A stretch of DNA of 40,698 nucleotides from Nitrospiria bacterium (lineage in GTDB: Bacteria > Nitrospirota > Nitrospiria > JACQBZ01), in NCBI GenBank assembly GCA_035498035.1, contig DATKAN010000045.1, positions 1 through 40,698 on the forward strand, in the 5' to 3' direction. This document shows positions 34,074-38,929 of the stretch, piece after piece (within the stretch, counting starts at the first letter, position 1; each line of letters begins with the position of its first letter). Below the pieces are notes generated by a model. It saw nothing but the letters and a program-made list of their open reading frames with translations. It searched no databases and was not told where the DNA came from. A program made the position numbers and the translations under genes.

Positions 34074-35480
34074 ATGTTCGATAAATTTCACGAAGAATGC
34101 GGAGTCTTCGGAATCGCCGGTTCGAAGGACGCGGCGAATATGACCTATCTCGGCCTGTATGCCCTGCAGCATCGCGGCCAGGAAGCGACCGGGATCGTAT
34201 CCTCCGACGGCAAGGCCTTCTACCAGGAAAAGGGAATCGGCCTGGTCTCGGATCTTTTCAACAAGGAACGGCTGGACCGCCTGAAGGGTTCCATGGCCAT
34301 CGGCCACAACCGGTACTCCACGGCGGGGGAAAACAGCCTGAAAAACGTCCAGCCGATCATGGTCAATTTCGCGCTCGGGACGCTGGCCCTCGCCCACAAC
34401 GGCAACCTGACGAACGCCGCCTTCCTGAGGGACGAGCTCGAGGCCTACGGCGCGATCTTTCAGTCCACCTCCGACAGCGAAGTGATCATCCATCTCATCG
34501 CACAGTCCAAGGAGAAGGACCTGATGGGCCGGCTGACCGAGGCGCTCCTCCGCGTGAAGGGAGCCTTCTCGCTGGTGATCCTAACGGACCACGGGCTGAT
34601 CGGGGCGCGGGATCCCTACGGTCTGCGTCCGCTTTCGCTCGGCCGGGTGAAGGACGCCTGGGTACTGGCCTCCGAGACCTGCGCGTTCGACCTGATCGAT
34701 GCCGAGTTTCTCCGCGACATCGAACCGGGCGAGCTGGTCCTGATCAATGAAAACGGGATCACCTCTTACAAACCCTTTCCGAAAACCGAGCCGGCCCACT
34801 GCGTGTTCGAATATGTTTATTTCTCGCGCCCGGACAGCCGGGTATTCGATCACCCTGTTTACGAGATACGGAAAAATTTGGGACGGCATCTGGCCCGGGA
34901 GACGGCGGTTCCGGCCGATATTGTAATCCCGGTCCCGGATTCGGGCGTCCCGGCCGCGCTGGGCTACGCCGAGGCCGGGAATCTCCGATACGAAAACGGA
35001 TTGATCCGAAACCACTACGTCGGCCGGACCTTCATCGAGCCGGAGCAGGCGATCCGTCACTTCGGTGTCAAAATCAAGCTGAACGCCGTTCAGGACGTCT
35101 TAAAGGGAAAGCGCGTCGTGGTCGTGGACGATTCGATCGTCCGGGGAACGACCAGCCGGAAGATCATCAAAATGATCCGTCAGGCGGGCGCGCGCGAGGT
35201 CCATCTGCGGATCAGCTCGCCGCCGATCATTTCGCCTTGCTACTACGGTATCGACACGCCGACCCGCTCGGAGCTGATCGCCTACAGCCATAGCATCGAG
35301 GAGATCCGGGCCTACATCACGGCCGACAGCCTGGCCTATCTCAGCCTGGAGGGGATGCTGGATGCCGTGCCGCACAAGACCAACCGCTACTGCACCGCCT
35401 GCTTCAGCGGAAAATATCCGATTCCCTTCACCCAGGAAGAAACGGTTCAGATCGGACTGTTCGATCCCAAGGCCCAATAA
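34074..35480 (+). CDS. purF: Amidophosphoribosyltransferase PurF
   Basis: The 468-aa enzyme makes phosphoribosylamine from PRPP and glutamine, the first committed purine step. The catalytic cysteine is C9 (H-E-E-C-G-V-F-G), so an eight-residue propeptide must be removed. The PRPP motif V-V-V-V-D-D-S-I-V-R-G-T-T-S is near residues 347-360. C243, C389, C440 and C443 (C-T-A-C) match the four Fe-S ligands of the Bacillus-type enzyme, so an oxygen-sensitive [4Fe-4S] cluster is expected. The start is three bases after purL. Confidence 0.97.
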   Translation: MFDKFHEECGVFGIAGSKDAANMTYLGLYALQHRGQEATGIVSSDGKAFYQEKGIGLVSDLFNKERLDRLKGSMAIGHNRYSTAGENSLKNVQPIMVNFALGTLALAHNGNLTNAAFLRDELEAYGAIFQSTSDSEVIIHLIAQSKEKDLMGRLTEALLRVKGAFSLVILTDHGLIGARDPYGLRPLSLGRVKDAWVLASETCAFDLIDAEFLRDIEPGELVLINENGITSYKPFPKTEPAHCVFEYVYFSRPDSRVFDHPVYEIRKNLGRHLARETAVPADIVIPVPDSGVPAALGYAEAGNLRYENGLIRNHYVGRTFIEPEQAIRHFGVKIKLNAVQDVLKGKRVVVVDDSIVRGTTSRKIIKMIRQAGAREVHLRISSPPIISPCYYGIDTPTRSELIAYSHSIEEIRAYITADSLAYLSLEGMLDAVPHKTNRYCTACFSGKYPIPFTQEETVQIGLFDPKAQ

Positions 35481-35536
35481 GTATTCCCGCGGTCTCCCCT
35501 CCGGTTCAAGGACCTCAAAACACCACTTTTGGGTAG

Positions 35537-35567
35537 TTGACATTAATCATCGGGATATGTTTATACT
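35537..35567 (+). promoter_or_regulatory. Candidate promoter of the first tandem unit
   Basis: TTGACA (35537-35542) is followed by TATACT (35562-35567) with a 19-bp spacer, or by TTATAC with 18 bp. The spacer is a little long, so an activator may be needed. The expected start is near 35574. The equivalent TTGACA of the second unit (35853-35858) has only a weak -10 candidate. Confidence 0.45.
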
Positions 35568-35573
35568 CCAGTC

Positions 35574-35786
35574 GATTTTCAAATATAGACACACTCGAAG
35601 AACACTTAAATAAGAAATCGATACCTTTATCACGGGAAATAGGGCCTCCCGTGATTGGCCGGGGTCGATATCGTCCCGGTTTCTTATTAGGATATTGTCC
35701 ATGCCCCCTACATGGCGGTTAAGTATAACGGGAAAACCTAGCGAGCCTTCTTCCGTGCCGAGCCCCGGAAGAAGGCTTTTGTGCTT
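35574..35786 (+). ncRNA. Candidate structured RNA, first tandem copy
   Basis: The predicted transcript of about 210 nt folds into several local hairpins: ATCACGGGA/TCCCGTGAT (35629-35655), the near-palindrome CCGGGGTCGATATCGTCCCGG region (about 35660-35680) and CCATG/CATGG (35699-35715). It then ends in the terminator at 35744-35786. It has no ribosome site plus ORF of any length. It could be a small RNA or an attenuating leader for the secreted-protein gene further down. No known riboswitch class is matched. Confidence 0.4.
35744..35786 (+). terminator. Intrinsic terminator of the first tandem unit
   Basis: AGCCTTCTTCCG (35744-35755) pairs perfectly with CGGAAGAAGGCT (35766-35777) around a ten-base loop, followed by TTTTGTGCTTT. 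The T-run is interrupted, but the 12-bp stem is strong. Confidence 0.8.
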
Positions 35787-35885
35787 TAAGTGATGCTTTC
35801 AAAAAGAGTATACAGATTGGCGATATACCCTAAAAAACCTACTTTTGTGTAGTTGACAAATGGTCAAAAAAAGCACATACAGATA

Positions 35886-36139
35886 GCCGTTGCCCGAATT
35901 TTGAGCTAAAATCTATACCGCTGAGGCAAGTTCTTATAATGTCAGGACGTTATTGAAAAGGAGGGTGGCCGGCGATTAAATAAAGGTTTTACTTGAATCG
36001 GATTCAATAGCCCAGCCGGGGGGCCGGGGCTCATGAATGGGCAAATCCCGTTCTGTTGTGACTGGCGATAAGATAACGGGCAAGCCTATCGGAAGCCTTC
36101 CTTCGTGCTGACGCGCGTGGGAAGGCTTGTGCATTTTTT
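35886..36139 (+). ncRNA. Candidate structured RNA, second tandem copy
   Basis: This unit aligns with the first mainly at its two ends: the TTGACA box upstream, and the segment TGGCGATAAGATAACGGGCA through the terminator (about 36063-36139), which matches TGGCGGTTAAGTATAACGGG onward in the first copy. The middle has diverged. The 5' end is uncertain because the -10 box is weak. It lies about 100 bp upstream of the secreted-protein gene, so it could be the leader of that gene with a conditional terminator. Confidence 0.35.
36093..36139 (+). terminator. Intrinsic terminator of the second tandem unit
   Basis: AAGCCTTCC (36093-36101) pairs with GGAAGGCTT (36120-36128), followed by GTGCATTTTTT. 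The stem sequence and the GTGC-plus-T tail mirror the terminator of the first unit. Confidence 0.75.
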
Positions 36140-36235: not shown

Positions 36236-38929
36236 ATGTTCAGAAAATCACTAAAATTATGTAAGCCGTTCGGATTTCTGTTGATCTTGGCTGCCTATAT
36301 GCCAGCCGTCCCCGCTCTGGCTGCTTCCATCAATTTTACGGACCCGCTCTTCAGTGATTGCGACTCTCAAACTTCTTGCGAGAAAACGGTGGGCGACGTC
36401 AAGATTAGGATTGAAGGTTGGAAGGATGCCGACCCCAAAGATGGGATATTAAATCCGTTGGTCGATACTCCGGCGCCCCTGTATTGGAAATCGGTAGATG
36501 ATAATGGATATCACGATGGATTCGGTGTCAAAACCGGCGAAATCGATGAGATTGAAAGACCCGAGTTCCTGGTCGTGAGATTCCTGAACGCCGACGACCC
36601 GGGAGGACCTGGGAATTGGCATTATATAAAGCACATGCTTAGCGAGCTCAATATCACAAACCTCTTTAATGAAAATGGATATCTGGAAAGAGGCGCTTAC
36701 AAGTTTACCGTAAATGAGGTCGATGGGGACTGGGTCGCCTTCCTGGCCGATGCCGGTCAAGTTCCAGGCTCGACGAACGGCGTGCTTGCCCTTCCTGTCC
36801 CGACGCCGCCTCATAGTGACGAATATGCGGATTACATCACATTTACCGCACCGGAACCCGGATACACAATTCCCAACGGACAAAATTTTGAGTTCTCCTT
36901 GGCGGGCTTGAATGCCGAGGCCCTCTATACCTTGAGCGTCTCTAGGTTTGGCACAGGGAGCGGTACCGTCACAAGCAGTCCTCCGGGAATTAACTGTGGA
37001 TTAGTTTGCACCAAGACTTATGATAACGGGACGGTTGTTGCACTGACGGCGACACCTGACGCGGGGTCCACCTTTTCGGGCTGGACGGGAGACTGTGACG
37101 GATCAGGTCATGTGACCATCAATTCTGATAAGAGCTGCACGGCGACCTTTACCCTCAACACCTACACCCTGACGATCAATGCCGCGGGAACCGGATCGGG
37201 GACGACGACGGGCGCGGGGACCTATAACTCCGGCCAGACCGCGACGGTTTCAGCAACCGCCAACACCGGCTCTACGTTTACCGGATGGACCGGTCCGAAC
37301 GCTGCGGAATGCGGCAGCGGTTCCGTTTTGATGAACGCCGACAAGAGCTGCACCGCCAACTTCACCCTCAATACTTACACGCTCGCGCTGACCACGGCGG
37401 GCACCGGCTCCGGCACCGTCAACGGCGCGGGGACGTACAACTATAATCAAACCGCCACCGTCTCGGCTTCCGCCAACACCGGCTCCACGTTTACCGGATG
37501 GACCGGTCCGAACGCTGCGGAATGCGGCAGCGGCTCCGTTTTGATGAACGCCGACAAGAGCTGCACCGCAAATTTCACTATCGATACATTCACGTTGACC
37601 ATAACAACGACAGGATCCGGCTCCGGTACCGTGAATGGGACCGGCACCTACAATTACGGCCAGATCGCTACTGTCTCGGCCATCGCCGATATCGGCTCGT
37701 ACTTTATCGGTTGGACCGGTCCCGATGCGGTGGAATGCGGCACCGGCTCGGTTTTGATGAACGGGAACAAGAGCTGCACCGCCAAGTTTGACCTTCCGGG
37801 GCCGCCTTCCGATGCCATCGCGGACCTGGTTCTCTGCCAGACAAACTTTACGAGCAAAAATCCCGACGCCGGGCTTTCCTCCACCAACGCGGTCGGCTGC
37901 AATCTTCCCTTTGCCGTGGCGATCGATCGAAGCGTGTTTCCGAACCATGTCTATATCTCCGACTTCAGCAACAACCGGGTGCTGGGCTGGGCCAATGAGT
38001 CCGCCCTGACCAGCGGCGCCCCCGCCGAAATCGTGTTCGGACAGCCGGACTTCACCTCCAACTCCTGCAACCAGGCCGGTCCGCCCACCGCATCGACGCT
38101 GTGCGGTCCTAGGGGAATTGCGGTGGACAGCGCCGGGAACCTGTATGTCGTGGATCAGAGCAACGGACGGGTCGCAATCTACTTTACGCCGTTCACCACC
38201 GACACGGTCGCGGATCAAGTGATCGGGCAGCCCAATTTGACCTCCGGCGGCTGCAGCAATCCAAGCTCATCGGTCGCGAGCGCCACCAGCCTCTGCGTTC
38301 CCACCGGGATCGCGCTGGATGCGTCGGACAATGTGTTCGTGGCCGATTTTGGAAACAACCGGGTGGCGGAGTACAATACCCCATTGACCACGGATGCGGT
38401 GGCCGATCTGGTCATCGGGCAGGCGAATTTCACCACCCTGGCGGCCGGGACCGGCGCCGCCGGCCTGAAGCAGCCGTACGCCGTGACGTTGGATGCGAAC
38501 GGCAATCTTTACGTGGCCGATTTCGGAAACAATCGTGTCCTGGAATATAATGCGTCCCTGGGCACCGGGATGGCGGCCAACCGGGTCTTTGGCCAGGCCA
38601 ATTTCACCGCGACGGCCGGAAACCGGGGAAGCATCACGCCTTCGGCCATCACGCTTTATAATCCGATGGGCTTGGTGGTGGATGGCAACGGAAACTTGTA
38701 CGTCGTCGATCGCTCAAACAACCGGGTGCTCGAATACAACACCCCCCTGACGACCGACGCCACGGCGGATCGGGTCTTCGGCCAGACGGGATTCACCACG
38801 AGCCAATGCAACAAGGGGGGTCTCGGCGCCGGCACCTTCTGCCTCCCGAGCAGTGTGGCGATCGATACATTGGGTGACGTCTGGGTGGTCGATTACGGCA
38901 ACAACCGTGCATTTGAGTTTGCCCATTAA
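36236..38929 (+). CDS. Large secreted protein with four Gly/Thr-rich repeats and six-bladed NHL propeller
   Basis: I start at ATG 36236, six bases after a G-run ribosome site, because it gives a standard signal peptide (M-F-R-K-S, a hydrophobic core, then A-L-A-A). ATG 36206 adds ten residues. The 897-aa protein has an N-terminal domain of about 210 residues of unknown family. Four Gly/Thr-rich bacterial-repeat domains follow (about 235-520), each with G-W-T-G and ending in K-S-C-T-A. Then come six NHL units (about 525-897), each with A-D-x-V-x-G-Q-x-x-F and N-L-Y-V-V-D-x-x-N-N-R-V, enough for a full six-bladed beta-propeller. No PEP-CTERM or LPXTG anchor is seen. A role in surface adhesion or matrix is likely but not shown. 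Confidence 0.88.
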   Translation: MFRKSLKLCKPFGFLLILAAYMPAVPALAASINFTDPLFSDCDSQTSCEKTVGDVKIRIEGWKDADPKDGILNPLVDTPAPLYWKSVDDNGYHDGFGVKTGEIDEIERPEFLVVRFLNADDPGGPGNWHYIKHMLSELNITNLFNENGYLERGAYKFTVNEVDGDWVAFLADAGQVPGSTNGVLALPVPTPPHSDEYADYITFTAPEPGYTIPNGQNFEFSLAGLNAEALYTLSVSRFGTGSGTVTSSPPGINCGLVCTKTYDNGTVVALTATPDAGSTFSGWTGDCDGSGHVTINSDKSCTATFTLNTYTLTINAAGTGSGTTTGAGTYNSGQTATVSATANTGSTFTGWTGPNAAECGSGSVLMNADKSCTANFTLNTYTLALTTAGTGSGTVNGAGTYNYNQTATVSASANTGSTFTGWTGPNAAECGSGSVLMNADKSCTANFTIDTFTLTITTTGSGSGTVNGTGTYNYGQIATVSAIADIGSYFIGWTGPDAVECGTGSVLMNGNKSCTAKFDLPGPPSDAIADLVLCQTNFTSKNPDAGLSSTNAVGCNLPFAVAIDRSVFPNHVYISDFSNNRVLGWANESALTSGAPAEIVFGQPDFTSNSCNQAGPPTASTLCGPRGIAVDSAGNLYVVDQSNGRVAIYFTPFTTDTVADQVIGQPNLTSGGCSNPSSSVASATSLCVPTGIALDASDNVFVADFGNNRVAEYNTPLTTDAVADLVIGQANFTTLAAGTGAAGLKQPYAVTLDANGNLYVADFGNNRVLEYNASLGTGMAANRVFGQANFTATAGNRGSITPSAITLYNPMGLVVDGNGNLYVVDRSNNRVLEYNTPLTTDATADRVFGQTGFTTSQCNKGGLGAGTFCLPSSVAIDTLGDVWVVDYGNNRAFEFAH
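37160..37798 (+). repeat. Three in-frame 213-bp tandem repeats
   Basis: Units begin at 37160, 37373 and 37586, each exactly 213 bp (71 codons). Units one and two are nearly identical over their last 120 bp (about 37262-37365 against 37475-37578), while the third is more diverged. This points to a recent duplication or gene conversion inside the secreted-protein gene. Confidence 0.85.

Follow-up and report, generated by a model that had tools for sequence, protein, structure and literature searches.

Our results show that the two RNA-like units downstream of purF belong to a family of 11 homologous units, spread over three genomes from a single Nitrospirota genus. Seven of them lie in the host genome (G000; 2.67 Mb in 67 contigs) and two in each of two congeneric genomes (G001 and G002), all three from related groundwater bacteria. 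A unit is defined here as a promoter box, a homologous leader of ~180 nt and a terminator. We consider it likely, at a probability of roughly 60%, that these units make up a leader-RNA family that is new, restricted to the genus and equipped with its own promoter, and whose members would act in cis as conditional terminators before exported-protein genes. This assessment builds on the demonstrated homology of the units, their shared promoter, terminator and start codon, and their gene context; we infer that the termination is conditional. The leader thus probably decides whether genes for exported surface proteins are read. The parts of unit 1 (copy one) and unit 2 (copy two) are listed below, with positions in the window, i.e., the whole stretch of 40,698 nucleotides that was analysed.

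34074–35480, + strand: ORF of purF (amidophosphoribosyltransferase), upstream neighbour and orthologous anchor for the comparison with G001
35524–35542, + strand: promoter box of unit 1 (CACTTTTGGGTAGTTGACA), upstream element plus −35
35562–35567, + strand: putative −10-like TATACT of unit 1, read from the sequence, 19 nt after TTGACA
35606–35788, + strand: leader RNA of unit 1, full match to covariance models R1 and R2
35609–35688, + strand: P1 stem of unit 1 (35609–35620 with 35677–35688), enclosing P2 (CGATA/TATCG) and P3
35629–35655, + strand: P3 hairpin of unit 1 (ATCACGGG...CCCGTGAT) with AGGGCC loop
35689–35692, + strand: AGGA of unit 1, Shine-Dalgarno-like
35699–35715, + strand: P4 hairpin of unit 1 (CCATG...CATGG), from the sequence
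35701–35793, + strand: short ORF of unit 1 (MPPTWRLSITGKPSEPSSVPSPGRRLLCFK), which crosses the terminator
35725–35732, + strand: ATAACGGG block of unit 1
35744–35788, + strand: intrinsic terminator of unit 1 (stem 35744–35777) with interrupted T tract
35840–35858, + strand: promoter box of unit 2 (TACTTTTGTGTAGTTGACA)
35976–36138, + strand: 3' part of the leader RNA of unit 2, a divergent member without the conserved start codon (R1, E=1.3e-8)
36047–36080, + strand: hairpin of unit 2 (CCCGTT...AACGGG), from the sequence; loop kept in the G001 ortholog
36073–36080, + strand: ATAACGGG block of unit 2
36093–36138, + strand: intrinsic terminator of unit 2 (arms 36093–36108 and 36113–36128) with T tract
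36236–38929, + strand: exported protein with signal peptide, InlB B-type repeats and NHL repeats, the presumed target gene

The earlier note on this DNA had described a shared TTGACA-containing start box, a similar GCCTTC terminator hairpin, local hairpins in copy one and a common segment ahead of the terminator, and all of these were found. The boxes, which begin at 35524 and 35840, lie in a 30-nt direct repeat whose copies are 83% identical and 316 nt apart, and the terminator stems span 35744–35777 and 36093–36128. Copy one has hairpins at 35629–35655, about 35657–35681 and 35699–35715, and the common segment is the ATAACGGG block. Compared with dinucleotide shuffles, both units have the more stable fold (z of −2.7 for unit 1 and −2.5 for unit 2).

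The paralogy that the earlier note suggested was borne out by covariance models and their extension to related genomes. A search of G000 brought up more copies of the box and of the terminal region, and model R1 was built from the five leaders among them with clear homology (copy one, C49, C26a, C65a and C2). It recovered copy two, on which it had not been trained, at 43 bits (E=1.3e-8), a likeness between the two units beyond chance, as well as C65b and two units in each congeneric genome, and no other strong match. Model R2, built from eight sequences, gave the same 11 units in a search of seven genomes of the family. Among 396 genomes of the phylum, three outside the genus passed 0.001, at 31–34 bits only, and matches in other genera were weak (below about 35 bits), with no convincing copy in the about 400 phylum genomes. 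A scan for the terminator pattern across about 85,000 species, in which records near the host genome may be absent, hit only the G002 genome (Nitrospirae bacterium NC_groundwater_955).

The word tandem, which had been applied to the pair, is misleading. In the sister species G001, only one unit stands behind purF, the ortholog of copy two, and copy one is missing. R1 gives 142 bits for copy one, from which it was partly built, and 43 bits for copy two. The absence of copy one in G001 and these scores indicate that the pair did not arise by simple tandem duplication. Copy one resembles the dispersed copies more than it resembles copy two, and a local duplication is therefore disfavoured; a unit was gained or lost at the purF site. 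Copy two and its G001 ortholog are 69% identical over 35828–36138, and are best conserved in the box, the initial transcribed region and the last ~80 nt.

The leader RNA runs from the P1/P2/P3 arm through AGGA, the start codon and a small hairpin to the terminator. In an eight-sequence alignment, paired cells of the consensus structure amounted to 88.5%, compared to 40–56% when the structure was slid. Changes on both sides were counted for five pairs. Shuffles gave 2.6 such pairs and reached five in 20 of 500 cases, and one of the slid versions came to eight. By eye, P2 showed the best covariation (AAGCACC/GGTGTTT, GGGCGCT/AGCGCTT, AGGCAC/GTGCCT and CGATA/TATCG). Covariation gives modest backing to a conserved structure. 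The U tract of the terminator is interrupted in most copies (TTTTGTGTTTTT). Of the two terminator arms, the pyrimidine-rich 5' arm (GCCUUCUUCUGAGC) is the better conserved; it stands in different reading frames among the copies, which points to conservation as RNA. By eye, P1 looked suggestive of pairing with the terminator arm as an antiterminator. This pairing was set aside, as complementarity to the upstream leader did not exceed that of shuffles overall.

These patterns bear on the view that the units are dispersed copies of a promoter cassette. In this view, the terminator would serve only for insulation or reduced expression, the RNA would play no regulatory role, and the likeness of the units would be due to recent copying. 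Such a cassette would account for the unrelated flanks of the units, the presence or absence of copy one at the purF site and the narrow distribution. However, conservation is uneven, with the box, P1–P3, the start region and the terminator kept and the spacers diverging, and the helices persist although their sequences differ; we regard this explanation as very unlikely.

The presence of promoter boxes, as claimed previously, holds in that the promoter is conserved, while a simple sigma-70 scan makes no call, owing to a −10 spacing of 17–19 nt. The 16-nt box core (at most two mismatches) occurs at 12 sites in G000, in comparison with none for a reversed control. Over 23 promoters, the consensus is approximately AAAAACCCACTTTYGTGTAGTTGACA, followed after 17–19 nt by a TATAAT-like hexamer. 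The conserved element overlaps the −35 and resembles an activator site, by which we infer a possible activator. The box is present in nearly all of the 11 units, and also precedes other exported-protein genes where the leader RNA is lacking.

Most units lie directly upstream of genes for exported multi-domain proteins (signal peptides by inspection), a position that favours the earlier suggestion of leaders upstream of a secreted protein. The domains downstream differ: InlB-type repeats and NHL in the window, CARDB and PKD at C49, CARDB and FG-GAP at C65b, NHL at C2, Laminin-G and Big_2 at g2C10, HEAT at C26a and TPR at g2C37. In C65b, C2 and g2C37, the gene begins at or almost at the terminator, or inside the unit; the start codon of C65b lies at most about 40 nt from the T tract. 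So close to the gene there is hardly room for another promoter downstream, so that expression in these three cases would be by read-through. Leaders with a conditional terminator, acting in cis, are therefore the best reading of the units. Exceptions are copy one, which is followed by the promoter of copy two, C26a, whose gene begins only after ~420 nt, and g1C66, which has no exported gene behind it and probably rimP as the next gene. A gene for a PEP-CTERM-like protein adjoins unit C2 (L097:1441–2139, G000:C2), which makes an exosortase system probable in this organism.

Alternatively, the units might be stand-alone small RNAs acting in trans, each with a promoter, an RNA of ~230 nt and a terminator, and with the GCCUUCUUCUGAGC arm or the short ORF acting elsewhere. 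Like the multi-copy sibling small RNAs of bacteria, they have their own promoter and terminator and several paralogs per genome. The three exceptions without a gene directly behind (copy one, C26a and g1C66) and the terminator 5' arm, conserved as RNA in varying frames, would fit this explanation. In contrast to the sibling small RNAs, however, the units stand directly upstream of one functional gene class, some without a separate promoter. Their usual position directly before exported-protein genes, the lack of room for another promoter in C65b, C2 and g2C37, and the box without the RNA driving the same kind of gene make a role in trans unlikely.

In line with the earlier statement that no known riboswitch class could be matched, the G000 units had no match among the 4227 models of Rfam 15, at the gathering score or at E<=1 to 5. 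The search had internal positive controls, since c-di-GMP-I riboswitches were detected in the same genomes: five, four and two members of RF01051 passed the cut-off in G000, G001 and G002, respectively, all outside the units. The units gave no RF01051 match despite these controls, and a GEMM-I variant was rejected. Eight genuine c-di-GMP-I riboswitches (L121–L128) were read, at G000:C23 and C61, G001:C10, C27 and C29, and G002:C37 and C61. They have terminators and precede mostly exported proteins, and none carries the box. Within these genomes, the c-di-GMP-I riboswitches form a second regulon of surface proteins. By analogy, they show that terminator leaders ahead of exported proteins are an established arrangement in the genus.

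RF01051 (c-di-GMP-I/cGAMP, GEMM-I) resembles the units in having several copies per genome, 5' leaders, intrinsic terminators and exported-protein genes. It differs in that the units match it in neither sequence nor structure, use another promoter, contain a start codon and are restricted to the genus. In the shared features, the units are comparable to the cGAMP regulon of Geobacter (PMC8835794, PMC6456294).

A small-molecule riboswitch of an undescribed class that controls the terminator, analogous to the c-di-GMP-I switches, would be consistent with those switches before exported proteins, with a P1–P3 arm whose loop AGGGCC(U/A)CC is kept in most copies, and with the PilZ-like gene that carries the box. 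This gene, PilZ-domain-like by inspection (L098:2224–2520, G000:C4, minus strand, box at 2591), hints at a c-di-GMP link of the regulon. Yet, unlike a ligand pocket, arm and loop vary: the G002 copies have different ones, and neither can be recognised in copy two or its ortholog. The Rfam search was negative even at its loosest threshold. A ligand as the trigger is in our view improbable.

Contrary to the earlier statement that no ORF fits, copy one has a 30-codon ORF (35701–35793) with AGGA 8 nt upstream; copy two and its G001 ortholog have none. A start codon (ATG, GTG or TTG) follows a purine-rich Shine-Dalgarno-like motif by 5–8 nt in 9 of the 11 units, eight of these nine having AGGA, and is absent in copy two and its G001 ortholog. 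The leader ORF stops just ahead of the terminator in C65a, C65b and g1C66, and inside it in g2C10. In C2 it shares the reading frame of the NHL protein, which has a signal peptide from no other visible start; in g2C37, too, the leader ORF and the exported protein share a frame, and the leader ORF offers an alternative start. A conserved leader peptide was rejected, as the differences between copies fell evenly on the three codon positions in the main group (53/55/53) and were only weakly biased in the smaller group (11/10/17). A conserved coding role of the ATAACGGG block (ITGKP, with synonymous differences between copies one and two) was also discarded, since in the G001 ortholog a start codon is lacking and TAG stands shortly before the block. 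Hence, it may be the start codon that matters, and not the peptide.

A start conserved without selection on the peptide would fit ribosome-coupled attenuation of the pyrBI type, i.e., a ribosome-coupled leader attenuator. The likeness lies in a short ORF between promoter and intrinsic terminator, with the ORF ending at or past the terminator in several copies, and such a terminator is indeed found between the start of the leader ORF and the gene. The units differ in lacking a biosynthetic gene, a run of regulatory codons and codon-level conservation of the peptide. The ilvB-II uORF motif was likewise a candidate structured RNA at first sight (PMC10272879).

Under the conditional-terminator reading, each unit would be a cis-acting module with the conserved promoter, a −10 after 17–19 nt, a structured 5' leader of ~180 nt and an intrinsic terminator. 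The promoter would fire within a regulon of exported proteins. The terminator would end transcription, and only a permissive state of the leader would allow read-through into the gene. The trigger would most plausibly be ribosome-coupled: translation from the short ORF would bring a ribosome to or through the terminator and block its formation, and the P1–P3 arm would set the accessibility of the ORF start. The ribosome is the trigger that we prefer, tentatively and at less than even odds.

A wider and rather doubtful scenario is that a genus-specific cassette of promoter, sensing leader and terminator was copied before unrelated exported-protein genes, building a second surface-protein regulon beside the c-di-GMP-I regulon, with ribosome entry on a non-conserved mini-ORF, not a ligand, as the antitermination trigger. 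For uncultured groundwater Nitrospirota, the family adds an undescribed group of leader RNAs whose promoter regulon is well defined. It also shows a possible shuffling of conditional-terminator modules ahead of large exported proteins. With 11 diverged copies, its parts are easy to compare and to test in reporters.

Several further boxes were observed. At G000:C4:13814 (L098:9315–9700), a leader of another kind stands behind the box. It has repeated hairpins (CATCTTCTGGGGGTAGAAGATG, CATCTTTTTACGGGGGTAAAAGATG) and no meaningful Rfam match, and lies several hundred bases upstream of an exported protein. At G000:C41 (L096:727–1043), a box leader upstream of an exported protein contains GGAGG and ACCTCC, whose pairing would sequester the Shine-Dalgarno sequence ahead of a short ORF. 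G002:C102 (L099:5553–6221) has three boxes within 600 nt upstream of genes for exported NHL-type proteins, and the C28 region of G000 (L095) has two boxes in a related arrangement. In another genus of the family, a box with one extra base occurs without the RNA (G003:C83:44744, L132:1500–1600).
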